Source: Thiocapsa marina 5811 (GTDB taxonomy: Bacteria; Pseudomonadota; Gammaproteobacteria; Chromatiales; Chromatiaceae). Taken from it: 64,000 bases of DNA. Made by a program: the position numbers and the translations under genes. The notes beneath the pieces were generated by a model. That model ran no database searches, had not been told where the DNA came from, and saw only the letters and a program-made list of their open reading frames with translations. The stretch lies in the NCBI RefSeq assembly GCF_000223985.1, contig NZ_AFWV01000003.1, positions 248,001 to 312,000 on the forward strand. The letters run 5' to 3'. Positions 3,308 to 48,182 of this stretch are shown in pieces; the stretch's first letter is position 1; each line of letters starts with the position of its first letter.

Positions 3308-3342
3308 GAAAACGACGCGCTTCGCTCTCTGGACGCGGTTTA
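3308..3342 (-). repeat. Half copy of the TAAACCGCG element (A sub-family, A1)
   Basis: A 35-base segment matching the reverse complement of the signature end seen in full copies (compare 11170-11202). Its last three bases on this strand, TAA, are the stop codon of the leftward M14 gene. It lies in the short gap between lipA and that gene. Confidence 0.65.
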
Positions 3343-4374
3343 GCCTTCGTGCGGCAGATGGTCGCTGTAGCGTTCCATCAGATAACAGAGACAGTCCTGG
3401 CGAATGACGACCTGATTAGTCGTCAGCATCGAGGGCATCACGGGCTGACGCAGACGGAGCTCGTGATCCTCGACATGAAAATAACGCTCGCCGACATCCC
3501 TGCCGTGCTCGTCGCGGACGTCCAGACCGATTCCGAGACCCTGGCGGATGCGCGCGAAGGCCATGCCCCGCGGCAGCTCGCAGAAGTTGAGGTGCTCGAT
3601 CGTCGGATTGAGCTGTAGGTCGGTCTCCTCCGGAGCGAAACCGAATGCTACGTCCTCGCGGACCTTCACCTGGGCAACCGTGTGGAACAGATCGATATCC
3701 TGCGACGCCACCGGATGGGGCGAGATGCGCGCGAGATGCAGCGCGGCATTGATGAAACCGCGGGCATGCTCGATCCCCTGCTGCTCGCCGACCCTGCCGC
3801 ATTCCACCGTGACGGACGGGCACAGCTCGGCCATGGCGAGTGATTGTACGCCGGTCGGCCGGGTGAAATAGACGACGATGCGTCCGAACAGATTCGCAAG
3901 GTTCAGGAATCGATTGTCGAGCCGATTCACGCAGGCGTAGTGCGGATTGGAGCCGGTGTTGTTGTGCAGATCCAGGCTGGCGAACAGCCCGCGGTCGGCC
4001 ATGATGCGCACGACCTCGGCCATGAGATCGTGCTCGGGGGTATGCGCTCGCTCGGTGCCGGGCCAGACACGATTGTAGTCCGGCTGTCCGGGCAGATGGC
4101 GCACCCCGGATGCCGCTGCACTGACGTTGCCGATGAACAGGCTCAGCGCGCGCGGCAGGCGCAGCTCGCCGAAGCGTTCGAGCCGTTCGCGCAGGACGGC
4201 GCGGATCGCCTCCCAACCGACGGTCTCGTTGCCGTGCATGAGCACCGACACGAAGAGCGCGGGCTCGCGGGCGCCGGACAGATGGATCAAGGTCGGCGCA
4301 CCGAGCACCCGATTCAGCTCATGGCTTTCGGCCTCGAGGATGCCTTCCGGAAGGTGATCGAGCTCTTGAAGCAT
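3340..4374 (-). CDS. Succinylglutamate desuccinylase/aspartoacylase-family zinc hydrolase (M14-like)
   Basis: A 344-residue zinc amidohydrolase or carboxypeptidase of the AstE/AspA branch. Ligands are H47 and E50 in HGNE and H137 in DLHNNTG; E191 in TVECG is the probable catalytic base. The C-terminal ~120 residues form the beta-rich domain usual for this family. It likely removes an acyl group from an N-acyl amino acid or cleaves a small peptide; the substrate cannot be read from sequence. It lies 175 bases downstream of the GCS2-family ligase on the same strand, suggesting a shared glutamate- or peptide-related pathway. The stop codon TAA is formed by a repeat element end. There is no strong ribosome binding site at the chosen ATG. 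Confidence 0.82.
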   Translation of the reverse strand: MLQELDHLPEGILEAESHELNRVLGAPTLIHLSGAREPALFVSVLMHGNETVGWEAIRAVLRERLERFGELRLPRALSLFIGNVSAAASGVRHLPGQPDYNRVWPGTERAHTPEHDLMAEVVRIMADRGLFASLDLHNNTGSNPHYACVNRLDNRFLNLANLFGRIVVYFTRPTGVQSLAMAELCPSVTVECGRVGEQQGIEHARGFINAALHLARISPHPVASQDIDLFHTVAQVKVREDVAFGFAPEETDLQLNPTIEHLNFCELPRGMAFARIRQGLGIGLDVRDEHGRDVGERYFHVEDHELRLRQPVMPSMLTTNQVVIRQDCLCYLMERYSDHLPHEG

Positions 4375-4405
4375 GGCGTCTTGGTCGTCGATTCGGGGGT
4401 GAGTT

Positions 4406-4490
4406 TAAACCGCGCCCGGCGCGGTATGCGATGTTTTCGAATGGGACGGCCCCGGCAGACTTGACGGCCGTTGGCGCCGGTGCGGTTTAG
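4406..4490 (-). repeat. TAAACCGCG element, B sub-family, full copy (B1)
   Basis: An 85-base element in the gap between two leftward genes. It begins TAAACCGCGCCCGGCGCGG on the + strand and ends GGTGCGGTTTA, so the termini are inverted repeats. The signature end carries a short GC hairpin followed by ATGCGATGTTTT, which defines the B sub-family. Confidence 0.75.
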
Positions 4491-4549
4491 GTCTCCGGTC
4501 GAGCCCGTGGTGGTCGATGCGAGGGATCCGTAGCTTCGGCTCGATCCGA

Positions 4550-5974
4550 TCAGCCGAGCAGGGTCCACGCGTGTACCGGCCGCCCCGTCCCTTGCTGTTC
4601 CAGATAGGCTGCGGTCAGGCCGGCCATGTCGGGGCCATGGCGCGCGACCCAGGCACGCTGCCAGCGGGCTCCCGTTCGGCCCGTCTCGAGCCGTCGCGCG
4701 ATGATGCCGAGCCAATGCGCGATCTCCGGCGGGTCGATGCCTGCTGAGAGCAGCCCACGCCGTGCTCGGGGCAAGAGATCCTCCCGCAGGATCCGGGCGA
4801 CGGGCGAGATCGCGCCGTCGAGCCACTGGATCTCGGCATCGAGTCCTTCGCGCGCGCAGGTATAAAAGGCTGCGCGGGTCTGCAGGAAGGGCATTCGCGA
4901 CTCCGGCGGCTCGAGTTGTCCGGCTAGATCACGCACGGCACCTAGGTACAAAGCCGCATTCGCGAACATGTCCGCCACGGTCGGGCCGGCCGGAACGACA
5001 CGGTGCTCGATGCGCAGATGCGGCCGCCCTGCCGCATCGAAGCCGAGCAGCGGGCGATTCCAACGCCAGATGGTACCATTGTGAAGACGCAGATGTGCCA
5101 GCGCCTGCGGCTCCTCGACCATGAGGTGCGGGAGCAGAACCGGATAGCGGTCGAGGTTTGCGCGAAAGGTCTCCATGATCGAACGCTCGGCATAGCGGAA
5201 ACCGAAATTCACCCGTTCCTGCAGGATGGGGCCGCCGAGCGAGACTGCCTGCTCGAAGAGCGGGATCCGTGTCTCGTCCCAAAGATCGTGGCCGAAGAGA
5301 TAGGGTGAGTTGGCCGAGATGGCGACCATGGGCCCGCTGATGAGCTTGGATGCGTTGTAGACGCGCGCCGCTTCCCTCGGGGTGACCTTAAGGTGGATCT
5401 GAAACGAGGTCGCGGCGGCCTCCAGCATCACGTCGTGCCACTCCAACGCGAGGCGGTCGCGACCCGCGATGTCGAGCTTCAAAGGCCGGTCGTGCCGCAG
5501 GGCGAAGATCTGGTCGTTGAGGGCCCGGTAACGCTGTCGCGGTGTCATGGCGCCGAGGCTGAGATGTTGCGGGCGCACGGTCGGCAGGATGCCGATCGTC
5601 AGGAGACGGGTCCCCAGTGTCTGCGCCACGCGGTCGCAGCGTTGCAGCGTCGCCGTGAGCTCGGTCGCGAGCCGGGACAGACAGTCGCCCGTCAACGGCC
5701 TCGGTGAACCGTTGATCTCCGCGTTGAAGGTTGCGAGCTCCGCGACCACCAAGGGGTCGTTCAGACCCGCAAGGAGCGACTCGACCTCGGGTGCCGGATC
5801 CAGCCGAGGATCCACGAGCCAAGCCTCCAGCTCGAATCCCGCGGTCGGATCGGATGTCTCGAAGCGATCGGAGTCCAGCCAGTGCTCCAGGAGCGTCGTC
5901 TCCTCGCGCAGCCGGTCGGCAAATTCGACGAAGTCCTGCTCGGTGAAATGCGCCTCTGCAATCTCCTGGCCCAT
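4550..5974 (-). CDS. Glutamate-cysteine ligase GCS2-family protein
   Basis: A 474-residue carboxylate-amine ligase of the GCS2 family (plant-type glutamate-cysteine ligase, YbdK, EgtA). The N-terminal GFELEAWLVD segment matches the FEVE-type start of the ATP/glutamate site, FNAEINGSP follows, and LRIEHRVVP (about residues 325-333) is the conserved C-terminal ligand region. It probably condenses glutamate with an amine such as cysteine. Whether it makes gamma-glutamylcysteine for glutathione or another gamma-glutamyl compound is not decided here. Its downstream neighbour is a zinc amidohydrolase. It ends 3' to 3' with nothing on the right: the murU gene starts further upstream on the same strand, 78 bases separating them. 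Confidence 0.75.
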   Translation of the reverse strand: MGQEIAEAHFTEQDFVEFADRLREETTLLEHWLDSDRFETSDPTAGFELEAWLVDPRLDPAPEVESLLAGLNDPLVVAELATFNAEINGSPRPLTGDCLSRLATELTATLQRCDRVAQTLGTRLLTIGILPTVRPQHLSLGAMTPRQRYRALNDQIFALRHDRPLKLDIAGRDRLALEWHDVMLEAAATSFQIHLKVTPREAARVYNASKLISGPMVAISANSPYLFGHDLWDETRIPLFEQAVSLGGPILQERVNFGFRYAERSIMETFRANLDRYPVLLPHLMVEEPQALAHLRLHNGTIWRWNRPLLGFDAAGRPHLRIEHRVVPAGPTVADMFANAALYLGAVRDLAGQLEPPESRMPFLQTRAAFYTCAREGLDAEIQWLDGAISPVARILREDLLPRARRGLLSAGIDPPEIAHWLGIIARRLETGRTGARWQRAWVARHGPDMAGLTAAYLEQQGTGRPVHAWTLLG

Positions 5975-6051
5975 CCCTTGTCCCCCGTCACGGTTGACTT
6001 AGGCTCCATTATGGTCGGATCTCGGGCCACTCGATAGGCGGCGCGCCGCGA

Positions 6052-6822
<771 letters not shown>

Positions 6823-6928
6823 TCATCCGCGAGCTTGGGGCATGTCCACGGCGGGTTTGGACGCGTGTCGTTGCCGTGGTAGCCTTTTCGCCCATTGTCG
6901 GCCAACCAGGTGACCGAGCGTCGTCGTC

Positions 6929-7747
6929 GTGTTCAAGATCATATCCTTCAATATCAACGGGATTCGTGCGCGACCCCATCAGCTCGAAGCGATCAAGGCC
7001 GCCCATGATCCGGACGTCTTGGGTCTGCAGGAGTGCAAGGTTGCCGACGATGCCTTTCCGGTCGACCTGGTGCGGGGGCTTGGGTTTGCGACCCATTTCC
7101 ACGGTCAGAAGTCGCACTACGGTGTCGCGCTCTTGAGCAAGGCCGAACCGCTCGCAGTTGCCAAAGGCTTTCCGGGGGATGCCGAGGACGCTCAGCGTCG
7201 CGCCATCATCGGGTGCTATCCCTTACCCGGCGGAGGCGAAATCACGGTCATCAACGGCTACTTTCCGCAGGGCGAGAGCCGTGACCATCCGATCAAGTTC
7301 CCGAACAAGCGCAAGTTCTATGCGGATCTCACCGCCTACCTGCGGGAATTCTGCACACCCGATCAGAACCTCGTCGTGTTGGGCGATATGAATGTGGCAC
7401 CCCTTGACCTGGATATCGGCATCGGGGCCGACAACGCCAAGCGCTGGCTGCGCACGGGCAAATGCAGCTTCCTCCCGGAGGAGCGCGAATGGCTGAAAAC
7501 CTTGACCGATTGGGGTCTGGTCGACGCCTATCGCGTGGTGCACCCGGAGGTCGACGACCGCTTCAGCTGGTTCGATTATCGCTCGCGCGGCTTCGAGCGT
7601 GATCCCAAGCACGGTCTGCGGATCGATCATCTGTTGGTGACCGCGCCCCTGCGCGAGCGTCTGCTGGATGCCGATATCGACTATGCCATTCGCGGAATGG
7701 AGAAGCCCTCGGATCATTGTCCCGTCTGGGCGCGGTTCGATCTGTGA
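6929..7747 (+). CDS. xthA: Exodeoxyribonuclease III
   Basis: A 272-residue AP endonuclease / 3'-5' exonuclease of base-excision repair. The family signature runs in order: [10 protein letters not shown] near the start, LGLQECKV with the metal-binding glutamate, the NGYFPQG loop, LGDMNVAP with the catalytic aspartate and asparagine, and PSDHCPVWA at the end with the catalytic histidine. The start is GTG at 6929, the only one that leaves the N-terminus at family length. It is transcribed away from murU, and the 187-base gap between them must hold both promoters. Confidence 0.95.
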
Positions 7748-7783
7748 GTCCCTCCGAGATCGAGCGCCGATTCGGATCCGGAC

Positions 7784-7818
7784 TAAACCGCGTCCGGAGT
7801 GACATGCGTCCTTTTCAT
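7784..7818 (+). repeat. Half copy of the TAAACCGCG element (A2)
   Basis: The signature left end, TAAACCGCGTCCGGAGTGAC followed by ATGCGTCCTTTTC, is present in the gap between xthA and murI. No matching right terminus lies within 120 bases, so this is a truncated copy. Confidence 0.65.
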
Positions 7819-7884
7819 CAACACGGCGATCCTGATGCCTCATATCATGTCCCGAAAACAGACTTCGGCAAGAGCGCTCGATCG

Positions 7885-8745
7885 ATGACGTCGCATCAGC
7901 CGATCGGCGTCTTCGACTCGGGTGTCGGCGGTCTCTCGGTCCTGCGCGAGATCCGGCGTGAGCTGCCGGACGAAGACCTGCTCTATGTCGCCGACTCGGC
8001 CTATGCGCCCTACGGCGATCAGTCTGCCGATGCGATCGAGTTGCGCGCGGTCGCCGTCACCGAGCTGCTGCTCGCACGCGGGGCGAAGGCGATTGTCGTG
8101 GCCTGCAATACGGCCACCGGTGCGGCGGCCCGGGTCCTTCGGAACCGGTATTCGGTGCCGGTGATCGCCATGGAGCCGGCGGTCAAGCCGGCCATCGAGC
8201 AGACCCGCTCGGGCGTGATCGGTGTTCTCGCGACGCGCCAGACCTTGGCCAGCGACACCTTCAAGCAGCTGCTTGCGCGCTTGGGCGAGGGGCCGGAGAT
8301 TCTCCTCCAGGCCTGTCCGGGTCTGGTCGAGCGCGTCGAGGCCGGCGACCTGGAGGGCGAAGGCACGCGCGCCCTGTTGGCTGCCTACCTCGAGCCGCTC
8401 TTGGCCCGACGCGCGGATACCCTGGTTTTGGGCTGCACCCATTATCCGCATCTGGGCGGGCTGGTCGGCGAGATCGTCGGGCCGCGCGTCAGGGTGTTGG
8501 ACTCGGGTGCTGCGGTTGCCCGGCAGGTTCACCGCCGTCTGGCCGAGGCCGGATTGCTGGCGCCGCCCGGCCGTGCGGGAACCGAGCGTTTCTGGACAAG
8601 CGGCGAGCCGATCAAGGTCGCTCCGGTGATGGAACGCCTCTGGGGCGCACCTTTGGAGCTCCATCCGCTGCCCCGGGAGGCCGCGACACCGCTTTTCGGC
8701 GAGGGTGCGGCCCTCGTCGTTCAAGGCGCCGGGTGCGGCCGATGA
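7885..8745 (+). CDS. murI: Glutamate racemase
   Basis: A 286-residue, cofactor-independent racemase that makes D-glutamate for peptidoglycan. It opens with GVFDSGVGGLSV (D11), has YVADSAYAPYG, and carries the two catalytic cysteines C74 in ACNTATG and C184 in GCTHYPH. The frame extends upstream to 7717, through the half repeat and the end of xthA, but only from ATG 7885 does the protein match the family. Its stop overlaps the upstream region of the next, secreted protein gene, so the two are probably co-transcribed. Confidence 0.95.
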   Translation: MTSHQPIGVFDSGVGGLSVLREIRRELPDEDLLYVADSAYAPYGDQSADAIELRAVAVTELLLARGAKAIVVACNTATGAAARVLRNRYSVPVIAMEPAVKPAIEQTRSGVIGVLATRQTLASDTFKQLLARLGEGPEILLQACPGLVERVEAGDLEGEGTRALLAAYLEPLLARRADTLVLGCTHYPHLGGLVGEIVGPRVRVLDSGAAVARQVHRRLAEAGLLAPPGRAGTERFWTSGEPIKVAPVMERLWGAPLELHPLPREAATPLFGEGAALVVQGAGCGR

Positions 8746-8780
8746 TGCACCGTGACCTTCAACCGCGTTGCGGAGGCATC

Positions 8781-9335
8781 ATGCGCGGGACAAGGGGGAT
8801 CCGAATCGCCGCGATCTTCACCCTTCTCCTGGCGGCCTTCGCCTCGTCGGGTGCCTTCGCGAACGAGCCGTGCCTCAAGATGGTGTTCGGGCATTACTGC
8901 CTGGGCGGCGATGTCGGCCCGCTATTGCAGAGCGTTCCGCCCCCGCTTGTGCGCCAAGAACAGGACACGAGCTTGGCCCTGGTGTTCGTCGATGGCCCGG
9001 ATCGCCTCTATGTGCTCGCCTTCAACGGCAAGATCTACAAGGTCGTGCGGGCCTTCGGCGTTTCGACGCAACTGCGCTACGAGGAGACCTATGCGGCCTT
9101 GCGCGACATCTACGGGCCCGGCGAAGACCGCAGCCGCTTCTCCCCCGATGCGACCACGCCCGGGCGCCGTCTGGTCGCGATTCGTCGCGGCGAGGGCGTT
9201 GCCATGCATGTCTGGACGCCGTCGCCGGCGTGGCGAATCGAGCTGTCCTGGACGCGCGAGATGGGCCTCGCGCTTGCGTATGTTGCCACGGAGCTCAGTG
9301 CCGCTCGCGCTGCGCAGATCGACCGGGGCCTCTGA
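8781..9335 (+). CDS. Secreted protein of unknown function
   Basis: A 184-residue protein with a clear Sec signal peptide: RGTRGIR, then a hydrophobic core, cleaved probably after SSGAFA near residue 27. The start ATG 8781 is preceded by CGGAGG at 8771-8776, which decides it over the in-frame GTG at 8733. The mature part has two cysteines close together (KMVFGHYC region), likely a disulfide, and a C-terminal helix ending in a short basic tail. I do not recognise the family. It starts 35 bases after murI. Confidence 0.7.
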   Translation: MRGTRGIRIAAIFTLLLAAFASSGAFANEPCLKMVFGHYCLGGDVGPLLQSVPPPLVRQEQDTSLALVFVDGPDRLYVLAFNGKIYKVVRAFGVSTQLRYEETYAALRDIYGPGEDRSRFSPDATTPGRRLVAIRRGEGVAMHVWTPSPAWRIELSWTREMGLALAYVATELSAARAAQIDRGL

Positions 9336-9352
9336 GCCCGGTTCCGCGTGCC

Positions 9353-10720
9353 TCAGTCCCGGCTGTCCGCGCGCCGATCCTTTGGCTGCCCGACCAGCGC
9401 GAGTTTTCCTTCGTCCAAGCCGGACAGCACGACCCTGACGAGCTCATTGCCGTCGATCGCGGTCCCGTGCGCCGCGACCTGGACCGGCAGATAGTTGGGG
9501 GTGTACCCGAATCGGGTCTCCCGGCGCTCGCCGTCGGGGTTGCCCTCGCAGAGGATCTCGACGGCCTTGCCGATCTGCTCGCGCAAGACCGCCGTGCGCA
9601 TGTGCGTCGCGAGGTCCTTCAGGGCGTTCAATCGCCGATGCTTGGTTTGGCGATCGACCTGGCTCGGCATCTCGGCCGCGCGGGTTCCTGCCCGCGGCGA
9701 GTAGGCAAAGGCATGGATGTATCCGAACCGCACGGACTCGGCGAAGGCGAGCGTGTCGTTCCAGTCCTCGTCGCTCTCGCCGGGGAAACCGACGATGATG
9801 TCGGTCGTGATGTTGAGGTCCGGTACATGCGCGCGACCTTGCTCGACCAGACCCGCGAACTCGGCCGTCTTGCAGCGTCGCGCCATGCGTCGCAGAACAG
9901 GGTCCGAGCCGCTTTGCAGCGGCAGGTGCAGATGCGGCATCAGGCGTGGATCCTCGAAGTTTCGCCAGAAGGCATCGCCGAGGTCCCAAGGCTCCAGCGA
10001 GCCGAGGCGCAGACGGGGAATCCCGGTCTCGCCGAGGATGCGCGCGATCAGGTCCGATAGCGTATCGCCCGAGTCGCTGCCGTATCCGCCGAGATGAACG
10101 CCGGTCAGCACCACCTCGCGGATGCCCTGTGCGACCAGTCGTTCGATCGCGGCGATGATCTCGGCTTGGGAGCGGCTGCGCTCCGCCCCCCGCGCGACGG
10201 TGGTGATGCAGAAGGTACAGCTGTAGCGACAGCCGTCTTGGATCTTGATGAAGGCACGCTGACGGCCGCGCGCGAAGAGTGCTCCGGCGGCATCGTTTGC
10301 AGCCGTCTCGGGCATGGCCGGAAGGTTCAGCGTTTCGAGCGCAATCTCCACCAAACGGTCTTTGTCCCGATTGGCGACGATCAGATCGACACCGGACTCC
10401 GCTGAAACCGCGCTGTCTCCGAGCGTGGCGAGACAGCCGCTGACGATCAGTCGCGCCTCCGGATTGGCGCGTTGGCTGCGCCGCAGGACTCCGCGCGATT
10501 TGCGCACAGCCTCCTGCGTGACGGCGCAGGTGTTGACGACGACCAGGTCAGCGGGGGCGCTCGCGTCGACCACGCGAAAACCCGCGTCCCGAAAGCGTTC
10601 GGCCCACTCTTCGGATTCGGCCTCGTTGAGCCGGCAGCCGAGCGTCGTGAGATGGACGCGACGACCGAGGCTTAAGGCGAGGCCATCTTGATCGGTTTCG
10701 ATCTTAAGCCCCCGGCGCAC
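9353..10720 (-). CDS. mtaB: tRNA (t6A37) C2-methylthiotransferase MtaB
   Basis: A radical SAM methylthiotransferase of 455 residues that converts t6A to ms2t6A at position 37 of ANN-decoding tRNAs. The N-terminal domain has the cluster cysteines C29 (TTLGCRLNE), C65 (VNTCAVT) and C96 (VSGCLA). The radical SAM triad is C164, C168, C171 in CRYSCTFC, followed by VLTGVHLGGYG, which is typical of MtaB rather than MiaB or RimO. A TRAM-like tail ends the protein. The start is GTG at 10720, overlapping the end of the upstream gene by 17 bases, which implies translational coupling. Confidence 0.92.
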   Translation of the reverse strand: MRRGLKIETDQDGLALSLGRRVHLTTLGCRLNEAESEEWAERFRDAGFRVVDASAPADLVVVNTCAVTQEAVRKSRGVLRRSQRANPEARLIVSGCLATLGDSAVSAESGVDLIVANRDKDRLVEIALETLNLPAMPETAANDAAGALFARGRQRAFIKIQDGCRYSCTFCITTVARGAERSRSQAEIIAAIERLVAQGIREVVLTGVHLGGYGSDSGDTLSDLIARILGETGIPRLRLGSLEPWDLGDAFWRNFEDPRLMPHLHLPLQSGSDPVLRRMARRCKTAEFAGLVEQGRAHVPDLNITTDIIVGFPGESDEDWNDTLAFAESVRFGYIHAFAYSPRAGTRAAEMPSQVDRQTKHRRLNALKDLATHMRTAVLREQIGKAVEILCEGNPDGERRETRFGYTPNYLPVQVAAHGTAIDGNELVRVVLSGLDEGKLALVGQPKDRRADSRD

Positions 10721-11102
10721 TCGGCGCCTGCGGCGTCGGGGAGTTCTGATGGATCAGCAGGCGCCAGCCATCGGTCCCTTTCCTGAAGACGTTGGTGCCG
10801 TAGATCGCCGGACCCGGCTGGCCCGGCGCCCCGCCTTGCATCCGTTCTTCGATCAGATGGATCGCGGTCTCTCCGGCCTCGATCCAGGCAAGGTGACGCA
10901 CCTGGATGTCGAAGGCGCCGGCCTGCTCGAAGATGGACCGCCAAAGTTGCATGACCTCCGGCCCCATCACCAGCGGCGTCATCGGCAGGAGACAGGCGAT
11001 ACTTTCCGAGTCCTCCCACACCTCTTTCATGGCGGCGGGGTCGCCCGCCTCCAGCGCATCGTAGAAGGCGTCCTCGGCGTCCTGAGGTGTGTCGAAGGGC
11101 AT
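10704..11102 (-). CDS. SnoaL/NTF2-like small protein
   Basis: A 132-residue protein with the cone-shaped NTF2-like pattern: a helical start (TPQDAEDAFYDALEAGD), a WEDSE segment, then alternating beta strands ending in GWRLLIHQNS. Such proteins are stand-alone ligand-binding or enzymatic domains (SnoaL, DUF4440), and the role here is unknown. ATG 11102 has an AGGA about 11 bases upstream and gives the family-length start; an upstream TTG would add 15 residues. It overlaps mtaB by 17 bases and is probably its operon partner. Confidence 0.72.
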   Translation of the reverse strand: MPFDTPQDAEDAFYDALEAGDPAAMKEVWEDSESIACLLPMTPLVMGPEVMQLWRSIFEQAGAFDIQVRHLAWIEAGETAIHLIEERMQGGAPGQPGPAIYGTNVFRKGTDGWRLLIHQNSPTPQAPSAPGA

Positions 11103-11169
11103 TGGCTTGGGTTCCTGGCTGATGGGCTGCTTTCCGGCTGTAGGCAACCGTTCGATAACAATTGATCGC

Positions 11170-11253
11170 TAAACCGCGTCCAGAGCGACATGCGTCATTT
11201 TCACTTGGTGTCGGGATTAGGGATTTTTCCGAACCTCGTGGAGACGCGGTTTA
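11170..11253 (+). repeat. TAAACCGCG element, A sub-family, full copy (A3)
   Basis: 84 bases, starting TAAACCGCGTCCAGAGCGAC and ending GAGACGCGGTTTA. The outer 11 bases of the two ends are exact reverse complements. The element lies between two leftward genes, where no other feature was seen. Confidence 0.8.
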
Positions 11254-11265
11254 ATCGATGACTGC

Positions 11266-11943
11266 TCACTCCGGTGCAGCTGCACTCCGGCCTGAGTCCG
11301 CGTTCCGCTCCGGCACCGGTGGATTCAACCAAGGCGCCGATCGGCGCAGATCTACACGCGGGATGCGCAGCTGGATCCCGTCCGAGGTCACCTCGCGCGA
11401 CATGGCGGCTATGTCGGCGTCCGGCGGTAAGGCCAGACGCTGACTCGCCGACCCGCTCATGACGCTGTAGCTCCGACCGGAGTCCGCGCCGAACCTGTCT
11501 TCACGATACTCTTCGGCCCGTGTCCGGTACGCAATCCTCAATCCGTGCCCTCGTGAAATGACCTGAACCTGCTCGGGATCGATGTTCGCGAGCCGGATCT
11601 CGACAAGATAGGCATCGGGGGTCGCCCGCCGCGAGATCGACAGACGCCTCGCCTGCCGACTCGATGCCTCGGGCTGCGCGGACGGTGCGTCCGATTGTGC
11701 GGCGAACGGGTTGCTCGGCGGCACAGGTAATCCCGGCGGCTCCATGAGCGGCGGTGGTCCGAAAGATCGCGGCCCGTGCGGGTTGCCCGGATCCACGAAG
11801 AAACCGGGGTTGTTCCATCCGCCGGCCCATGGGGCTGCGGGAGGGTAAGGTCCGGGCGGTGGCGGTCCGTAAGGGCCCCACGCAAAGGTCGGGGCGGAAG
11901 CGACGATGATCAAAACCGCGACGGTCAGGTGAGCGATACGCAT
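11266..11943 (-). CDS. Secreted protein with proline-rich linker and Hsp20-like domain
   Basis: A 225-residue protein. A signal peptide (MRIAHLTVAVLI..., cleaved probably after PTFA) leads into a Gly/Pro-rich segment of about 70 residues (runs of PPPPG, PGNPHGP). The C-terminal ~110 residues look like an alpha-crystallin fold: a strand-rich core around YLVEIRLANIDPEQVQV, then SQRLALPPDADI and a closing GIQLRIPRV, where small heat-shock proteins have L-x-I. AGGAG six bases before ATG 11943 supports the start. A small heat-shock-like domain with a secretion signal is unusual, since these chaperones normally act in the cytoplasm. The function is unknown. Confidence 0.65.
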   Translation of the reverse strand: MRIAHLTVAVLIIVASAPTFAWGPYGPPPPGPYPPAAPWAGGWNNPGFFVDPGNPHGPRSFGPPPLMEPPGLPVPPSNPFAAQSDAPSAQPEASSRQARRLSISRRATPDAYLVEIRLANIDPEQVQVISRGHGLRIAYRTRAEEYREDRFGADSGRSYSVMSGSASQRLALPPDADIAAMSREVTSDGIQLRIPRVDLRRSAPWLNPPVPERNADSGRSAAAPE

Positions 11944-12525: not shown

Positions 12526-13325
12526 GCTGTCGCTGCGGGCTTTCAGGGATCGGTCGCAGGGTTTCGGTCTGCGGTGGGGTGATGCGCGAGAGCACAAGCG
12601 TACCGCGGGTTACGAATGCAAACGGGGCCTCGCTCGCAAGACCCAAGACCTGCCACCCAAAACATCATTCGCTCGTGACACCCGCTCTGCGGTGTCACGC
12701 ATGCCCCCTGGCCCTCTGCGCCACGTTCCACGATGGTACCGGACTGACGAGCAAGGCCGGCATACGGCCCTCCATGCCGCGTTGATGAGCACCGTATCCG
12801 AAGCACACGTTCGCCGCAATGCGTGTGTCGGCAAGGGGCGCCTGCCCATCACCGCCTATCATGACACCGTCGATTCCCCGTTTCGGACGCGCATCCTCTC
12901 CAAAGCTCGGACAAGCATACGATCCTTGCCATCAAGCAGGAAGCGAACAGCGCACGTAAAATGAACAAGCACTGGGAGCCAGGGCGATCCCGGGACGGTT
13001 TGCTTGATTCGCTGGACGAAATGCGGCGGATCGATCGGAGCACGAAGTGACCTTTCCGTGACGAGGGATTGACCGACCGATGGCGAGATTTCCAAGAGTG
13101 GTTGCCCGGGGCCGTGGTCGAGCGCCTATGCCCATCCGTCGGAGCGGACGAGGAGCTTGTCGGCGAACGTCCGCTGTTGGAGCTGATATCCGATCGGCCA
13201 CGGCTCACCGGCGGCGGACCGGAGCCTTTCCGGGGGATGCGGCCGAGACAAAGCACCAGCGCGGTCGCTGCCGACCCGTTGGCCACCCCATTGTCGGCAT
13301 CATTGCAACACTGGAGTTCTGCATC
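12526..13325. other. 800-base gap with no supported gene
   Basis: No frame here has family similarity or good coding character. It contains one REP-like hairpin (12672-12725). At 12960-13110 short + strand frames (from ATG 12961 and around 13069) read like a broken small protein, including LLDSLDEMRRIDRS and then TDRWRDFQEWLPG after a stop. They may be remnants of a lost gene, but nothing identifies it. Confidence 0.4.
12672..12725 (+). repeat. REP-like hairpin repeat, copy 1
   Basis: A 54-base repeat whose first part folds as GTGACAC...GTGTCAC around CCGCTCTGCG. A close copy lies in the opposite orientation at 19799-19852. Confidence 0.7.
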
Positions 13326-15015: not shown

Positions 15016-15104
15016 GCTTGAGCGCGCCGGCTCCGACAGTCGTCGGAGCCGGCGCGGCCAAGCCACTCCAACGCATGACGCATACCGTACCGGGCGCGGT
15101 TTAG
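15016..15104 (+). repeat. TAAACCGCG element, B sub-family, full copy (B2)
   Basis: About 89 bases, from TTGAGCGCGCCGG to CGGGCGCGGTTTA. It includes an internal hairpin, GGCTCCGAC...GTCGGAGCC. It occupies part of the 404-base gap between 14808 and 15211. A 72-codon frame on the - strand (14848-15066) runs partly through it and is not considered reliable; nothing else was seen in the gap. Confidence 0.7.
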
Positions 15105-16204: not shown

Positions 16205-16356
16205 GGCGTGCGATCCTGTTGGTGGTGATTGTGAAACAAAGGCGCTGGGTTTCGGAGGGCACGCGATTTGTCGCCAAAAAACGTGACGCATCCGAAACCA
16301 TTTAGTGCCATCGGGCAATCGGTATGTCGGCACCGCTCGACTGCTCGGTCCGGATT

Positions 16357-16521
16357 GCGGCAGCTGCATTCGTTCGCCCACACTAGGCCGCGTCAGTCAG
16401 GTTCGGTTCTTCCCGCATCCCGGGCGCGCGTTGCACCCTGTTCGGCTGGATCGCGGTCCAATCCTTGCCCGCTAGGTCTCGGCAGCGGTCCCTGGTCGTC
16501 AACGGTGCGACCAGGATCGTG
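16357..16521 (-). pseudogene. Decayed partial duplicate of the adjacent thaumatin-like gene
   Basis: 165 bases align without gaps to 17141-17305, inside the thaumatin-like gene, with about 145 identities. Read in the parental frame, the copy still gives recognisable protein (TILVAPLTTRDRC, then DWTAIQPNRVQRAPGM) and then hits TAG where the parent continues TYAAYC. No start, signal peptide or remainder was found, and flanking sequence to 16716 is unrelated. It is the remnant of a paralogue or of a partial duplication. Confidence 0.85.
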
Positions 16522-16716: not shown

Positions 16717-17853
16717 TCAAGACGCGCTCGGAATCCGCGGCAGAGGCGAACCCTCCGGGCAGTAGGTCACGGTATAGCCGCGCTGGCCGCCGCTCGAACA
16801 GGCGCATTGCTTCGGATCGAGGGGATATTGGTAAGCATCTTCGCAACTCACTGTTGTACAAATCAACTGACTGCGGTTTCCAAGGCTGTCGCATGCACAG
16901 TCTCCGCCGGCCATGTCCACGTGGATCGGCACGTTGAAGAAGATATTGGCGCTCGCAGTGACACAGTTGTTCGGGTCGACCCCGGGACCGCAAAGCAAGG
17001 GAGGCATGGCGTTGGTGCTGAGGTTCACGAAGTCCTGCCCCTGGAAGTCCGGCGTCAATTCCAAATGGGTTCCGAACGTCTTGTCGTAGTTCATGTTCGG
17101 ACCGCAGCATGGCGTCTCGGCGGGATCGCTCGAGCATTGTGCGGCAGCTGCATTGGTCGGCTGACAGTAGGCCGCGTAAGTCAGGTTCGGGTCTTCCCAC
17201 ATCCCGGGCTCGCGTTGCACCCTGTTCGGCTGCACCGCGGTCCAATCCTCGCACGCCAGGTCTCCGCATTGGTCCCTGGTCGTCACCGGTGCGACCAAGA
17301 TCGTGTTCGGGCTCCCCGCGTGAAGCTCGCCGATCGGGAAGGTCTCTTGCTCCCCCGCCTGCAGGACATTGCCGTCGATCGCGGCATTGGTGTCCGACAT
17401 CAGCTTCAAGGGCAGGGCGCAGTTGTTGAATAGAATGACCTTTCCGGCGACCGGCGTGATCGATCGACCGGAGACAAGCAGTGCCACCTGATCGACCGCG
17501 CCCAAGGCGCCCTGGTGCAACTGCCGGAGGTGCTTGAAGAGGCCATCGAAGGATTCCTCGGCGCCGGGACAGGATGCGGGATCCTGCAGGACCGTCTCGA
17601 CGTAACGTTGCAGATGCTCGCGATCGCAGTCCTCGAGACCGACTGCCATCCGTGCCGGGTCCTGTGCCTCCCCGTGCAGGTTATCGGCGTGGGCTTCCAA
17701 CAAACACGCGATGTAATCGCCTGCGATGACGCCGACCTCGGCCTCGCATGATCCGCCGACCGCCGGATCGGCCGAAACCTGCGAGGCGAGCAGCAATGCG
17801 CCGCAGGCGCAGGCGCGAAACGGGCGCACGACGACAGAAGGGTTATTGTTCAT
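16717..17853 (-). CDS. Secreted thaumatin-like protein
   Basis: A 378-residue, cysteine-rich exported protein. A signal peptide is followed by a helical region of about 110 residues with its own cysteines. From about residue 135 the pattern is that of thaumatin-like domains: a FNNCALPLKL start, an LELTPDFQGQDFVNLS strand pair, an NVPIHV segment, and the C-terminal signature CEDAYQYPLD...YTVTYCP. Many paired cysteines imply periplasmic or extracellular disulfide formation. ATG 17853 is preceded by GAGG about nine bases upstream, which favours it over ATG 17877. Thaumatin-like proteins are mainly known from plants and fungi; bacterial members are scarce and of unknown role. The start of a duplicate copy lies downstream. 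Confidence 0.65.
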   Translation of the reverse strand: MNNNPSVVVRPFRACACGALLLASQVSADPAVGGSCEAEVGVIAGDYIACLLEAHADNLHGEAQDPARMAVGLEDCDREHLQRYVETVLQDPASCPGAEESFDGLFKHLRQLHQGALGAVDQVALLVSGRSITPVAGKVILFNNCALPLKLMSDTNAAIDGNVLQAGEQETFPIGELHAGSPNTILVAPVTTRDQCGDLACEDWTAVQPNRVQREPGMWEDPNLTYAAYCQPTNAAAAQCSSDPAETPCCGPNMNYDKTFGTHLELTPDFQGQDFVNLSTNAMPPLLCGPGVDPNNCVTASANIFFNVPIHVDMAGGDCACDSLGNRSQLICTTVSCEDAYQYPLDPKQCACSSGGQRGYTVTYCPEGSPLPRIPSAS

Positions 17854-19161: not shown

Positions 19162-19852
<691 letters not shown>

Positions 19853-24762: not shown

Positions 24763-24802
24763 CTAAACCGCGCCCGGCGCGGTGTGCGATGTTTTTGGAT
24801 GG
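24763..24802 (-). repeat. Half copy of the TAAACCGCG element, B sub-family (B3)
   Basis: CCTAAACCGCGCCCGGCGCG followed by GTGTGCGATGTTTTT matches the signature end of the B copies. No opposite end was found. It lies in the 293-base gap between xseA and the GGDEF-EAL gene. Confidence 0.65.
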
Positions 24803-37653: not shown

Positions 37654-37950
37654 ATGGAGATCCCGAGCGTCCTCGTCCAGTGGCCGTTGCAGGCCGTTCT
37701 TGCGATCGTTGCGGGCCTGATCATCCTGATGGTTCCACGGGTTCTCAACTATGCCGTGGCAACCTATCTGCTCGGGGTCGGTGCACTCGGTCTTCTTCTG
37801 GTCTACCAGGGGCAGGCCGTGAAGGCGCAAACGATCATCGCCCTGGTGGCCGGTGTGCTGATCCTGGTCAAGCCCAACATCCTCAACTACGTCATCGGGA
37901 TTTACCTGATTCTCGTGGGCCTGCTCGAGTCCGGCGTCATCCGCATCTAA
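37654..37950 (+). CDS. DUF3096 small membrane protein
   Basis: A 98-residue hydrophobic protein made of two near-identical halves. The first reads AIVAGLIILMVPRVLNYAVATYLLGVGALGLL and the second repeats the plan with ALVAGVLILVKPNILNYVIG. Each half gives two membrane-spanning segments with a P-x-x-LNY turn between them. The role of the family is unknown. ATG 37654 has AAGG about ten bases upstream. The stop codon TAA is the first three bases of a repeat element (37948-38032). Confidence 0.85.
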   Translation: MEIPSVLVQWPLQAVLAIVAGLIILMVPRVLNYAVATYLLGVGALGLLLVYQGQAVKAQTIIALVAGVLILVKPNILNYVIGIYLILVGLLESGVIRI

Positions 37951-38032
37951 ACCGCGTCCGGAGCGGCATGCGTCGTTCTTGGATGGGAGCTGCCACCGTC
38001 GGATCCTTGAACGTCCCAGCTGACGCGGTTTA
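37948..38032 (+). repeat. TAAACCGCG element, A sub-family, full copy (A4)
   Basis: 85 bases, from TAAACCGCGTCCGGAGCGGC to GCTGACGCGGTTTA, with 11-base inverted termini. Its first bases supply the stop codon of the DUF3096 gene. The rest of the gap to accA (38033-38291) holds nothing recognisable. Confidence 0.8.
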
Positions 38033-38297
38033 GGATTCTGAAAAACAGAAACTTTAACCTGCGTGCCGGCCGAGTTTCAGGCGTGCGCTCACCGTAGGAC
38101 TCACCCGGAGTTCAGCAACTCGCTCCGGACTCGGCTTAAGCGCTCATCCGGTGCGGATCGATCGCCAGGGTGCGCGCATCCTCAGCCTTGCGCGCTGATG
38201 CGCCGCGTGCCGGCAACCCAAAGATCCTCGACGGCGGCTTGAACTCGCGGGACGGCAATGCCAGACTCCCGCAGCTTCCAACGAGGATCCTGTGGTT

Positions 38298-39272: not shown

Positions 39273-39276
39273 GTCC

Positions 39277-40632: not shown

Positions 40633-40703
40633 TCCCCCGCACCCGCCGCCATTGCAGGCGATTTCCGTGAAGAGGCATCCTGAATGCATATGCACGGGAG
40701 ACC

Positions 40704-40740
40704 TGTAGGGCATGTCAGGACGAATGAATTCGCCCCTACA
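40704..40740. repeat. Imperfect palindrome (TGTAGGG...CCCTACA)
   Basis: A 37-base dyad with outer arms TGTAGGG and CCCTACA and inner arms around CGAATGAATTCG. It resembles small dispersed palindromes of the GTAGGGGCGAATTC type found in many proteobacteria. Only one copy was noticed here. It lies in the 349-base gap after tilS, which otherwise holds the repeat at 40811-40884. Confidence 0.55.
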
Positions 40741-40810
40741 TGCAGGCCGATCTTTATCCCTGAAACGACCAAAACCGGAGTCTAGCGTTGTTCATGAAGC
40801 TCGGCCGGTA

Positions 40811-40884
40811 GGGTGGATGAGCGAGAGCGACGTCCACCGAGCCCCGCACCGACGCAGGTGGACTGCGCTACACTTGTCCACCCT
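40811..40884 (+). repeat. 75-base repeat, copy 2
   Basis: A near copy of 37471-37545 in the same orientation, here with clearer dyad ends (GGGTGGA...TCCACCC). It lies between tilS and cnoX, both of which end in this region. Confidence 0.65.
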
Positions 40885-40981
40885 ACGGCACTTGTCCACC
40901 CGGCCGCTGTGATCGGCGACGTGGCCGGGTTTGCGGGCGGGGCTGGGGTTTAAGGCGATCGCTCGGTAGGCGACTCAAGAC

Positions 40982-41842
40982 TCAGTAGAGTGCATTCATC
41001 ATCTTGGCGCGATACCCGGCGACCAGGTCGCCGCCGCCGAGCAGATCGAAGATCGCCAGCATCCCTTTGCGCGCTGCGTCCTCTTGAAATGTGCGGTCGC
41101 GTTTCATGAGGGTCAGAAGATTCTCAAGCGCGGACGCATAATCACCGCGCACGACCTGGTGTGCGGCGAGCTGGTAGCGGGCCAGGCTGTCCTTGGGATC
41201 TTCGGAGAGCCGCGCGATCAGATCCGACTCCGGCGGCGCGTCTTCGAGTGCCGTCGCGAACCGCAGCTGTCCGCGCAGCGCCAAGACCTCGGGTTCGCCT
41301 GCAAGCTCGATCGGGAGCTTGTCGATCGCCTCCTGAGCCTCGGCGATCTCGCCACGAGCCGCCATCAGCTGCAACTCGGCGAGCGCCAGGCGGGCGTTCT
41401 CCGGATCGGCCTCCCGCGCCTTGTCGATCAGGGCTCGGGCACCGGCGAGATCACCTCCGGCCAACAGGCCCTGCGCCTGGGCCAGGAGTCCGTCGGAGGC
41501 GCGCGGGATGTGCCGGTCGAGAAACTCGCGGATCTGGCCCTCGGGAAGGGCGCCCATGAACTGATCCACGGGTTGCCCGGACTTGAACAGCTGCACCGTG
41601 GGGAGGCTGCGGATACCGAACTCGGCGGCCAACGCCTGTTGCTCTTCGGTATTGACCTTCGCCAGAATGAATCGCCCGCGGTACTCGGCGGCCAGATTGG
41701 CGAGAATGGGCATCAGCATGCGACAGGGCGCGCACCAGTCGGCCCAGAAGTCGACCAGGATGGGACGGTCGAACGAGCCTTCCAGGACAACCGCCTGAAA
41801 ATTCTCCGTCGTAACGGTCACAATATTCGGTGAATCGGCCAT
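40982..41842 (-). CDS. cnoX: Chaperedoxin CnoX / YbbN-type thioredoxin-TPR protein
   Basis: A 286-residue protein with an N-terminal thioredoxin domain (1-108) and a C-terminal TPR-like helical domain that holds unfolded proteins and binds GroEL. Unlike E. coli CnoX, which has lost the first active-site cysteine, the active site here is WCAPC (C37, C40), so dithiol oxidoreductase activity should be kept. It probably protects proteins against oxidative overload. GGAG lies about nine bases before the ATG. It is divergent from trxC, with two repeat elements between. Confidence 0.92.
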   Translation of the reverse strand: MADSPNIVTVTTENFQAVVLEGSFDRPILVDFWADWCAPCRMLMPILANLAAEYRGRFILAKVNTEEQQALAAEFGIRSLPTVQLFKSGQPVDQFMGALPEGQIREFLDRHIPRASDGLLAQAQGLLAGGDLAGARALIDKAREADPENARLALAELQLMAARGEIAEAQEAIDKLPIELAGEPEVLALRGQLRFATALEDAPPESDLIARLSEDPKDSLARYQLAAHQVVRGDYASALENLLTLMKRDRTFQEDAARKGMLAIFDLLGGGDLVAGYRAKMMNALY

Positions 41843-41882
41843 GATCGGGACACTCCTGCAGACGGGTCGGATAGGGTGGATC

Positions 41883-41965
41883 TAAATCGCGTCCAGAGCG
41901 ACATGCGTCGTTGTCGTGTTCCGTCGGGCTCGGGGGTATGTCCGACCTTTCTGGAGGCGCGGTTT
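41883..41965 (+). repeat. TAAACCGCG element, A sub-family, full copy (A5)
   Basis: 83 bases, TAAATCGCGTCCAGAGCGAC to GAGGCGCGGTTTG. Both ends have single changes, so it is an older copy. It is joined to copy B4 by a 23-base AT-rich spacer, forming the composite 41883-42076. Confidence 0.75.
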
Positions 41966-41988
41966 GAAAGTTAACATTTTTGAGTACC

Positions 41989-42076
41989 TTAAGCGGCGCC
42001 AGCCCCGGCAGTCGTCGGAGCCGGCACGGTCGAGCCCATCCAGCAAACGACGCATACCGCATCGGGCGCGGTTTAA
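41989..42076 (+). repeat. TAAACCGCG element, B sub-family, full copy (B4)
   Basis: 88 bases, TTAAGCGGCGCC to GGGCGCGGTTTAA, reading as an inverted relative of the A copies. It is the right half of the composite unit upstream of trxC. Confidence 0.75.
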
Positions 42077-42157
42077 CGGTCGAACATAACTGTCGGATCA
42101 GGTCGATTCAAGCCGATCGAGCCGGGTATCCGGATACAACCGCAAGGAGTCATCGCC

Positions 42158-42592
42158 ATGTCCGAATCGCTTCACGTTGTCTGCCCCGCCTGCGACGCGG
42201 TCAACCGGGTCCCTCGGGAGCGTCTCGGTGCCGCAGCGAAATGCGGCAAGTGTCACGGTCCGCTGTTTCTCGGCCGGCCGCTGGCGCTGGATGAGTCCCG
42301 CTTTGCGCGTCATCTCTCGCGCAGCGACCTGCCGCTCTTGGTGGATTTTTGGGCGCCTTGGTGCGGGCCTTGCCGGATGATGGCCCCGGCCTTCGAGGCC
42401 GCCGCAGGCCGGCTCGAGCCGAACCTGCGTCTCGTGAAGGTCAACACCGAAGAGGCGCAAGCCCTGGGTGCGCGTTTCGGTATTCGGAGCATCCCGACTT
42501 TGGCGCTGTTTCGCGGGGGAGCCGAGGTTGCGCGCACGGCCGGGGCGATGGACACGAACGGAATCGTCGCTTGGGCGCGGCAGGCGCTCTAA
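42158..42592 (+). CDS. trxC: Thioredoxin 2
   Basis: A 144-residue cytoplasmic thioredoxin. The N-terminal zinc site is C9, C12, C29, C32 (CPAC and CGKC). The redox site is WCGPC (C69, C72), followed by the cis-proline in RSIPTLALF. AAGGAG at 42141-42146 is well placed for ATG 42158. The stop codon TAA is the first three bases of element A6. The gene is bracketed by two ~195-base composite repeats in direct orientation. Confidence 0.95.
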   Translation: MSESLHVVCPACDAVNRVPRERLGAAAKCGKCHGPLFLGRPLALDESRFARHLSRSDLPLLVDFWAPWCGPCRMMAPAFEAAAGRLEPNLRLVKVNTEEAQALGARFGIRSIPTLALFRGGAEVARTAGAMDTNGIVAWARQAL

Positions 42593-42672
42593 ACCGCGTC
42601 TGAAGCGAGATGCTGATTTTCGAGTGAACTCGACGTTTGGTGCATCCACAACCCTTAGCGGGACGCGCTTTA
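42590..42672 (+). repeat. TAAACCGCG element, A sub-family, full copy (A6)
   Basis: 83 bases, TAAACCGCGTCTGAAGCGAG to GGGACGCGCTTTA, with one change in the right terminus. Its TAA is the trxC stop codon. A 22-base AT-rich spacer links it to B5. Confidence 0.78.
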
Positions 42673-42694
42673 GAATAATATATTTTTTAATATC

Positions 42695-42785
42695 TTAAGC
42701 CGCGCCGGCTCAAACGGTCGTCAATTCTGCCGGGATCGGTTGCTCTTAGCCGAAAACATCTCATACCGCGCCGGGCGCGGTTTAA
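42695..42785 (+). repeat. TAAACCGCG element, B sub-family, full copy (B5)
   Basis: 91 bases, TTAAGCCGCGCCGGC to CGGGCGCGGTTTAA. It is the right half of the second composite unit (42590-42785). The rest of the gap up to carA (42786-43051) shows no gene; the carA promoter should lie there. Confidence 0.78.
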
Positions 42786-43051
42786 TACTGAATCCGGTAC
42801 CGCGTCCGAGACGCAGGCCTCGTTTCGGGTGTTGCGCACGGCATAACTTGAGGGTTTCGCCGCGCCCTGTGGTGTCGCACCCCTGCGCTCGGAGACGTTC
42901 GGCCTCGCGGTGCACATGGACACCCGCGCGCGGCTTCTTTAGAATTCCCGCGGGTCAGGGCGTCGCCCGTGAGCCCGCCCAGGCGTCCATGCGCCGCCAC
43001 CTGCGTTTGCGTCGCGGCCGCTGCACGCCCCCGCCCGGATCGGAGAAACCC

Positions 43052-44197
43052 TTGAGCAAACCCGCGGTACTCGTGCTGGAGGACGGCTCCGTCTTCCGGG
43101 GAATGTCGATCGGCGCCGATGGATCGAGCGTCGGCGAGGTGGTGTTCAACACCGCCATGTCTGGATATCAAGAGATCCTGACCGATCCCTCGTATCTGCG
43201 ACAGCTCGTCACCCTAACCTATCCGCATATCGGCAACGTCGGCACCAACCCGGAGGACGAGGAGTCCGACCGCGTTCAGGCCGCCGGCCTCATCATCCGC
43301 GACCTGCCGCTCCTGCCCAGCAACTTTCGCATGACCGAGCGTCTCGACGCCTATCTGCGGCGACAGGGCATCGTCGGCATCGCCGATATCGACACTCGGC
43401 GTCTGACCCGCCTGCTGCGCGAGAAGGGCGCGCAGAACGGCTGTCTTCAGGCCGGCGACGGGATCGACGAGGCGGCGGCACTGCGCGCCGCACAGGGCTT
43501 TCCGGGCCTCAAGGGCATGGATCTGGCGCAAGAGGCATCGACGTCGGAAACCTATTCCTGGACCCAAGGCGTTTGGGTCTTGGGCGAAGGCCATCCCGAG
43601 TCCATCCATCCGGTCGGCGATCGACTGCCCTTCCACGTGGTCGCCTACGACTACGGTATCAAGCGCAACATCCTGCGGATGTTGGCCTCGCGCGGCTGTC
43701 ATGTCACGGTCGTGCCCGCGCACATGCCGGCGACGACGGTGCTGGGCCTGAAGCCGGACGGGGTGTTTCTCTCCAACGGTCCGGGCGATCCGGAGCCCTG
43801 CGATTACGCCATCGCGGCGATCCGCGAGCTGCTCGACACCGACATGCCGCTCTTCGGCATCTGTCTCGGGCACCAGCTGCTGGGTCTTGCCAGCGGAGCG
43901 CGCACGCTGAAGATGAAGTTCGGCCATCACGGCGCGAATCATCCGGTGCAGGATCTCGCCACGGGCGAGGTCATGATCAGCAGCCAAAACCACGGCTTCG
44001 CGGTCGACGAGGAGACTCTGCCCCCGACGGTCGAGGCCACGCATCGCTCCTTGTTCGACGGCAGCTTGCAAGGCATCCGGCATCGGGATCGCCCGGCGTT
44101 CGGATTCCAGGGTCACCCCGAGGCGAGTCCGGGCCCCCATGATCTCGCGCCGCTCTTCGATCGTTTCATCGAGCTCATGCGCGCGCGCAAGGCCTAA
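43052..44197 (+). CDS. carA: Carbamoyl-phosphate synthase small subunit
   Basis: A 381-residue glutaminase subunit that feeds ammonia to CarB for arginine and pyrimidine synthesis. The N-terminal domain begins [13 protein letters not shown]. The amidotransferase domain has GICLGHQLL (nucleophile cysteine) and HPEASPGP with the catalytic histidine and glutamate. The start is TTG 43052, with CGGAG six bases upstream and exact family length; the frame extends further upstream without similarity. The stop codon TAA belongs to repeat element B6. Confidence 0.96.
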
Positions 44198-44266
44198 AGC
44201 GCTCGTCGAGTCTTCCGGAGCCGATCCCATTCAAAAACATCGCATACCGCGCTGGGCGCGGCTTAA
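44195..44266 (+). repeat. TAAACCGCG element, B sub-family, shortened copy (B6)
   Basis: 72 bases, TAAAGCGCTCGTCGAG to GGGCGCGGCTTAA, filling nearly the whole 86-base carA-carB spacer. It begins with the carA stop codon, so carA and carB are co-transcribed through it. Confidence 0.7.
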
Positions 44267-44283
44267 CCGGCGAATGAACCCCC

Positions 44284-47493
<3,210 letters not shown>

Positions 47494-47500
47494 TCGATCT

Positions 47501-47532
47501 CGCGGGCGCCTTTTGGCGCCCGCGATCTTTTC
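47501..47532 (+). terminator. Rho-independent terminator after carB
   Basis: A perfect 10-bp GC stem (CGCGGGCGCC / GGCGCCCGCG) around a TTTT loop is followed by a T-rich stretch (ATCTTTTCT). It begins 7 bases after the carB stop and separates carAB from greA. Confidence 0.88.
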
Positions 47533-47624
47533 TATTCGACACCCCGAGTATCCGAACCGCCGCGCGCCATGCGCTCGACCCGCGGACCGGATGAAGGCGG
47601 TGCATCCGAGCGAGGAAGTCACCC

Positions 47625-48101
47625 ATGAACCAGGTCCCTCTGACCGTCAGAGGCGCTGAGCAATTGCGCGAAGAGCTCGAGCGTCTCAAGCGCATCGAGC
47701 GTCCACGAATCATCGAGGCGATCGCCGAGGCGCGGGCGCACGGCGATCTCAAGGAGAACGCCGAGTACCATGCCGCGCGCGAGCAGCAGGGTTTCGTCGA
47801 AGGGCGCATCCAGGAAATCGAGGGCAAACTCGCGAACGCCCAGATCATCGACGTGACGCAGCTCGCCGCCAACGGTCGGGTTGTCTTCGGCGCGACCGTG
47901 CAGGTCTTGGAGCTGGATAAGGATGTCGAGCACAGCTTCCAGATCGTCGGCGAGGACGAGGCCGATCTCAAGCAGGGAAAGATCTCGGTCGGTTCACCCA
48001 TCGCACGCTGCCTGATCGGCAAGAGCGAGGGCGATGTCACCTCGGTGCAGGTGCCGGGGGGGGTGCGGGAGTTCGAGATTCTGGAAGTGCGTTACGTTTA
48101 A
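47625..48101 (+). CDS. greA: Transcription elongation factor GreA
   Basis: A 158-residue factor that rescues backtracked RNA polymerase. The N-terminal coiled coil carries the acidic tip in [17 protein letters not shown]. The C-terminal FKBP-like domain ends with [23 protein letters not shown] about ten bases before ATG 47625 supports the start. The stop TAA is the first three bases of element A7. It has its own transcription unit after the carB terminator. Confidence 0.96.
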
Positions 48102-48182
48102 ACCGCGTCCGGCTGTATCTGCGACGGCAGTTGGTGGGGCTTGCCTTGGCTGATCTCCGATGCGTCGGCTGGACGCGGTTTA
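48099..48182 (+). repeat. TAAACCGCG element, A sub-family, full copy (A7)
   Basis: 84 bases, with TAAACCGCGTCC and GGACGCGGTTTA as perfect 12-base inverted termini, the cleanest copy in the window. It starts with the greA stop codon. The interior differs from the other copies. Confidence 0.82.

Follow-up and report, generated by a model that had tools for sequence, protein, structure and literature searches.

Among the closest systems described so far, RUP, Correia/NEMIS and ERIC are bacterial miniature inverted-repeat transposable elements (MITEs) with a terminal TA and a duplicated target (in sections of PMC2229807). ISY100, of the IS630/Tc1-mariner type, inserts at TA and duplicates it (PMC2170065, in part), and the reference list of that paper holds a title on the preference of IS630 for the TA in CTAG. 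At gene 3′ ends, palindromic repeats are described, GTAG-tagged REP sequences often provide the TAG stop, and REPs no more than 15 nt from a stop are reported to reduce translation (parts of PMC3733652 and PMC12306157). The SPRITE repeat of Streptococcus pneumoniae is enriched near gene 3′ ends and was suggested to act as a co-opted terminator (PMC3049150, in part). The repeat analyzed here is dispersed over a stretch of 64,000 nucleotides from Thiocapsa marina 5811 (contig NZ_AFWV01000003.1, positions 248,001 to 312,000; hereafter the window). It is a composite of about 192 bp, which inserts as one unit at the TA within a YTAR target, whereby the TA is duplicated. We consider it a probable MITE with two hairpins and a TA target, of which some copies have been retained as hairpins at gene 3′ ends. 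No account of this repeat in Chromatiaceae was found in the literature searched.

The window contains 32 occurrences of the motif TAAACCGCG with no more than one mismatch, versus 9.8 ± 3.1 in shuffled sequences (largest count 18). The repeats are real: the copies of the original prediction were found at the given coordinates or a few bases off and were recovered by a repeat finder. The anatomy was read from ten genomes, in a total of about 1.02 Mb that was partly picked around known copies and holds 118 units of 82–89 bp with no more than two end mismatches. Neighbors less than 60 bp apart were spaced by 21–26 bp in all 35 pairs, with the heads pointing outward in 34 and with an A- or C-type unit partnered with a B- or D-type unit in 33, the exceptions being weakly classified. 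In the mobile element, an A/C-type unit and an inverted B/D-type unit, heads outward, are joined by an AT-rich spacer of about 23 bp, which is conserved; the length of the element mostly varies from 187 to 197 bp. The spacer, read from the A/C side, approximately resembles AAATTTTATATTTTTTAATAYCT and is alike in Thiocapsa and in genome G033 of the sample. Single units of about 84 bp and remnants are also present. The A and B copies, first described as two opposite sub-families of an 83–91-bp element, are two halves of one mobile element, as at 41883–42075 and 42590–42784, where both flank a 23-bp spacer; the mobile unit is the pair of about 192 bp. In comparison with RUP, Correia/NEMIS and ERIC, as far as the sections cited describe them, the repeat is likewise short and non-coding, with terminal inverted repeats, a TA duplication, many copies and predicted base-paired transcripts; it is set apart from their descriptions by the two-unit composite, the conserved spacer and another end sequence.

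A search for the two ends at unit spacing gave 328 matches on one strand of the window's own genome (G000, 5.59 Mb) and 323 on the other, and the reversed control pattern gave no match there. In a sample of 146 genomes of the family, the window's own included, 21 had at least one match: nine (including G000) with 46–483 and 12 with 1–4, whereby the reversed control reached 1–3 in a few genomes and counts of 1–2 are near noise. Copies were thus found where the original prediction proposed to look, elsewhere in the genome (328) and in other Chromatiaceae (46–483 in eight of the 145 others). The matches listed in a pattern scan of named genomes belonged to Thiocapsa, Thiobaca, Thiocystis, Lamprocystis, other Chromatiaceae and one Laspinema; the last (L201) was put down to chance, its interior being unlike any unit. 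A covariance model gave at least 150 matches in each of eight genomes, 98 in G142, 14 in G031, 11 in G123, 10 in G107, four in G057, two weak ones in G030 and none in G117. The exact pattern had no match in viral contigs, nor had one composite used as a query in phage and plasmid records; in a plasmid search with a 6.3-kb query, carAB was covered among the matches listed.

Mobility was assessed by comparing insertions in joined adjacent stretches (100–300 kb) of five element-bearing Thiocapsa genomes and of G123, which is without exact copies. For 96 cleanly bounded clusters, both flanks were located in the other genomes, resulting in 105 ortholog comparisons. The site was empty or near-empty in 26 of them, and in 21 of the 26, at 11 loci, the flanks overlapped by exactly 2 bp. 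TA was the empty-site sequence at six of these 11 loci. Moreover, the target conformed to YTAR in 87 of the 96 clusters, CTAG being the commonest (27 of 96), which together with the TA insertion and duplication is similar to the IS630/Tc1-mariner type as the cited part of PMC2170065 presents it. With a single composite as query, at least 40 full-length copies of 97–100% identity were found in G139 (40 of 418 first-look candidates scored); they therefore testify to recent movement. YTAR was the target in 27 of the 30 burst copies inspected. A few extra bases are present at the site in G102 (196154 locus) and in G139 (the window's 41883 locus) and could perhaps be excision footprints. Both the target-site duplication and the empty sites in sister strains that had been proposed as checks of the MITE reading were thus observed, and this reading gains from the high copy number here and in relatives, the insertion polymorphism, the 2-bp TA duplication and the recent burst. 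A further observation was made in G139, where two adjoining composites (383 bp; joined stretch 17470–17852) have one common terminal TA; the site is empty in G000.

The original prediction added that conservation at fixed positions across distant species would point to regulatory structures. In part this was found: among the five element-bearing Thiocapsa genomes compared, two single-unit loci occupy an identical gene end in every one and a further four loci do so in four, with conserved ends, yet the element is also mobile. Both hold, that is, the element moves and some old copies look retained. That the repeats are immobile host structures, either terminators or 3′-end hairpins, would agree with these six kept loci and with the strong predicted fold of the copy at greA (z = −5.0 versus shuffles; five other window copies, −2.9 to −1.2). 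As the sole explanation it is already contradicted by the empty sites at 11 loci and by the recent burst, with its 40 or more near-identical copies. The absence of a T-tract and the composite in the carA-carB spacer, where a strong terminator would harm, stand against it as well, making it extremely unlikely.

The element, a probable non-autonomous DNA transposon built from two related inverted-repeat-ended units, heads outward, around an AT-rich spacer, is presumably mobilized in trans, by an IS630/Tc1-mariner-type DDE enzyme that works by cut and paste. Unlike IS630/Tc1-mariner elements, none of the IS630-family copies examined has AACCGCG ends, and the terminal repeats of the resident IS630 loci examined (a part of 53 matches was bounded) differ from those of the element. 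An autonomous carrier was found neither among 30 PF13358 loci and 20 further regions nor among 28 of 30 PF01609 loci (all except L187 and L188), and the PF13340 and PF13359 transposase loci, examined in part, included no carrier of the ends; each genome was read in part, and a single autonomous copy could have escaped. The fetched DNA, 3.16 Mb with some overlap between pieces, contained 497 heads; 27 of these lack a tail, and none of the 27 bounds an autonomous transposon. The candidate L276, with two such solo heads 1.3 kb apart, was rejected as an autonomous copy, being a truncated head plus a composite unit located where an unrelated gene ends. In G132, a 5-Mb genome of the same family, 142 PF01609 matches are present, dozens of them near-identical 385-aa frames.

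A REP-type origin, offered in the original prediction next to the MITE, would make the composite a doublet of the REP/REPIN type, with a RAYT (Y1) transposase as the enzyme that moves it. The inverted doublet with fixed spacing, its location at gene ends and eight Y1-transposase matches in the window's genome speak for this, and a stop codon can also be supplied by GTAG REPs (PMC3733652, in part). Nevertheless, the TA duplication is exact, the ends are symmetrical, the base of a 20–40-bp palindrome has no GTAG or CGTC tag, and the element flanks none of the eight Y1 (RAYT-family) loci; near one of them a lone end motif lies at a distance of about 1.4 kb. A RAYT-moved doublet is therefore very unlikely. 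What the repeat has in common with REP/BIME and the GTAG/CGTC-tagged palindromes, as the cited parts describe them, is a palindromic repeat at gene 3′ ends; it differs in the larger units (about 84 bp), the composite of about 192 bp, the TA duplication and no adjoining Y1 transposase having been found.

The relation to stop codons was examined with genes called by a simple codon-usage caller. The terminal stop codon was common to the cluster and a neighboring gene in 53 of the 96 clusters (G000, 10/24; G023, 10/18; G139, 14/25; G071, 10/16; G102, 9/13), and nine clusters overlapped a called gene. After merging by flanks, 28 of 57 loci shared their terminal TAA or TGA with a gene stop, compared with 125 of 1263 (9.9%) non-coding YTAR sites outside elements (Fisher p ~5e-13, the loci being not fully independent). 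On the level of units, in all DNA fetched by then, 172 of 483 shared a stop, 51 overlapped a called gene and 260 did neither. Insertions differed by age: a stop was the site in 15 of 22 loci for those common to two or more genomes, in one of eight for private insertions whose site is empty in a relative, in 12 of 27 for loci classed as neither, and in six of 30 for the G139 burst copies (30 examined of 40). Since the shared insertions are richer at stops than the burst copies (p = 0.0007) or the private ones (p = 0.012), the excess seems to build mainly after insertion, via retention, loss elsewhere or both. Such growth with age sets the element apart from RUP, Correia/NEMIS and ERIC in the form given by PMC2229807 (in part). 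The end reads TA-AACC; therefore insertion at a TAA or TAG stop rebuilds TAA and leaves the protein unchanged, as seen at carA, which in the empty relatives G102 and G123 stops at the corresponding residue.

Two loci differ between genomes in their units. At one, an A-D composite in G000 corresponds to an A unit alone in G023. The thioredoxin-2 stop is followed by B-C in G071, C-B in G000, a single B in G023 and a single D in G139, the opposite orders being due either to reinsertion or to inversion. Direct copies of the 9-bp ends lie about 107 bp apart in the composite, and deletion between them would produce single units with intact ends, the presumed origin of such units.

In settled copies, the paired ends are more conserved than the rest, and their changes are often compensatory. 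Filled orthologous sites were located by their flanks and compared 58 times (32 unique pairs); differences amounted to 65 of 1276 positions (5.1%) in the 11-bp ends, 914 of 6055 (15.1%) in the interiors and 736 of 6930 (10.6%) in the flanks, the ends being about three times less divergent than the interior, a figure weakened by the query copies having been picked by their ends and by many pairs having been counted both ways. Covariation was followed in 483 distinct units with no more than four end mismatches, some of them perhaps chance pairs. These units form 190 flank clusters, with 250 units combined in a single cluster. Matching changes in both arms were present at 60 locus-positions versus 3.9 expected from independence, and one-sided or unpaired change only at 150. 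Examples are TGAACC/GGTTCA, TAAATCGCG/CGCGATTTA, TAAAACGCG/CGCGTTTTA and TAAACTGCG/CGCAGTTTA. Position 2 accounts for 32 of the 60, and an inherited variant end may explain part of the two-arm changes. Position 10 matches its partner in 264 of 283 units with exact 9-bp ends versus 137 expected, much of which is one T-A/C-G split between sub-families. Among 70 diverse units, an 11-pair stem was 96.2% paired with 34 two-sided changes; this covariation was reached by none of 500 shuffles, and slid controls gave at most 12. In strict ortholog pairs, four double changes at three loci (about one expected) all kept the pair.

A number of results weigh against a TA-targeting MITE with retained 3′-end hairpins. 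In the remaining five of the 11 empty loci, TG or GA stands in the relative in place of the expected TA, which we read as later substitution. A partial search of partly read genomes gave no transposase bounded by AACCGCG ends. A called gene is overlapped by 51 of the 483 units, the stop share of the burst is not significantly above the background (p = 0.11), and strict in situ compensation is thin, with the four cases at three loci. As for the transcript, the gene-sense strand had 45 G-U versus 32 A-C mispairs (p = 0.17), that is, no preference, and no T-tract follows 31 single units at stops (T fraction 0.17–0.37 in 5-nt bins). Without G-U bias and T-tract, there is therefore no direct sign of a role on the RNA level. 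An intrinsic terminator was rejected, since no T-tract stands right after the stem; in this, and in the empty sites and target duplication observed here, the repeat differs from SPRITE, the enrichment near gene 3′ ends being common to both as far as the cited part of PMC3049150 goes. A known Rfam RNA family was likewise rejected, as the window gave only a tRNA above the gathering score.

An alternative is that the matched arm changes arise on the DNA level, by template switching or palindrome correction, that the copies at stops are those left after purging elsewhere, and that the hairpins are functionless. The mispairs without RNA-strand bias and the missing T-tracts agree with it, as do the burst copies, which are at stops in six of 30 and in several cases between divergent genes; purging alone could enrich stops over time. 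On the other hand, the ends change less overall than the interior (5.1% versus 15.1%), which symmetry correction alone would not predict, an objection which is itself weakened by the choice of query copies by their ends. Functionless hairpins are, in our view, less likely than not. For the MITE with retained hairpins, some copies would be kept for their action as mRNA 3′-end hairpins, for example against exonucleases or on terminating ribosomes. A tentative extension, which we hold as possible without favoring it, is that the element supplies ready-made gene 3′ ends: an insertion would restore the stop codon and place a hairpin right at it, and in time the host would keep these copies, many of them shortened to a single unit, and preserve the stem through compensation. 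If true, a transposon has remodeled many gene 3′ ends in Thiocapsa and relatives, including those of greA, carA and thioredoxin-2. Fresh burst, shared insertions and old single units form a dated series in which the way from a selfish repeat to a settled 3′-end hairpin would be traceable at orthologous genes, and which makes the question of parasite or working part directly testable for gene-end palindromic repeats. The missing transposase should be active in G139 or only recently lost from it.

In the window, the copies described as all intergenic need a more careful wording, because the terminal TAA is the stop codon of a gene at five of the 11 loci. At greA, a single unit at 48099..48182 (+) with a strong predicted hairpin provides the stop (gene end 48101); it has the same place in G023, G071 and G102 and is absent from G139 and G123. 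The composite at 42590..42784 (+), with a C unit (42590-42672), spacer (42673-42695) and reverse B unit (42696-42784), ends the thioredoxin-2 gene at 42592 with its TAA. Another composite at 37948..38138 (+) consists of a unit at 37948-38032, spacer at 38033-38054 and a decayed reverse C-type unit at 38055-38138; the TAA of the first unit serves as stop codon for a DUF3096 gene ending at 37950, and orthologous composites are present in G071 and G102. Between carA (TAA stop at 44195, gene end 44197) and carB, the supposed B copy at 44195..44265 (−) is a composite deletion remnant: the full composite of 191–192 bp is present in G023, G071 and G139, the site is empty in G102 and G123, and the window's copy is partly deleted. 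The fifth is a half copy with an A/C-type head at 3305..3342 (−), whose terminal TAA is the stop of the AstE/AspA-like open reading frame 3340-4374(−).

Apart from these, the composite at 41883..42075 (+; A unit 41883-41966, spacer 41967-41989, reverse D unit 41990-42075) has divergent genes on either side, and G023, G071 and G102 are empty with a shared TA. The B copies of the original prediction exist, several with at least one end mismatch. A single B-type unit of 84 bp is located at 4406..4489 (+), where the orthologous site in G023 is about 190 bp, and a single A-type unit of the same length at 11170..11253 (+) has exact 9-bp ends on both sides. The copy proposed at 15016 is present as a single D-type unit at 15018..15103 (−), its outer left end being degraded. 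The half copy at 7784..7821 (+) is indeed an A-type head remnant, whose orthologous position in G023 is taken by a complete composite of 192 bp, and a B-type head remnant lies at 24764..24802 (+).

Directly downstream of the greA unit, a TCGTTG-type microsatellite occupies 48242-48307; TCGTTG-like runs are also present beside two G139 burst insertions (L294 and L305) and after greA in G107. The window also holds another palindromic repeat that is unrelated to the element, CGTGACANCCGCTCNGCGGTGTCACG, at 12672-12706 (+) and 19818-19852 (−); with no more than two mismatches, it occurs at 42 places in the window's genome versus none with the reversed control. A direct repeat of 166 bp with 88% identity is located at 16356-16521 and 17140-17305.

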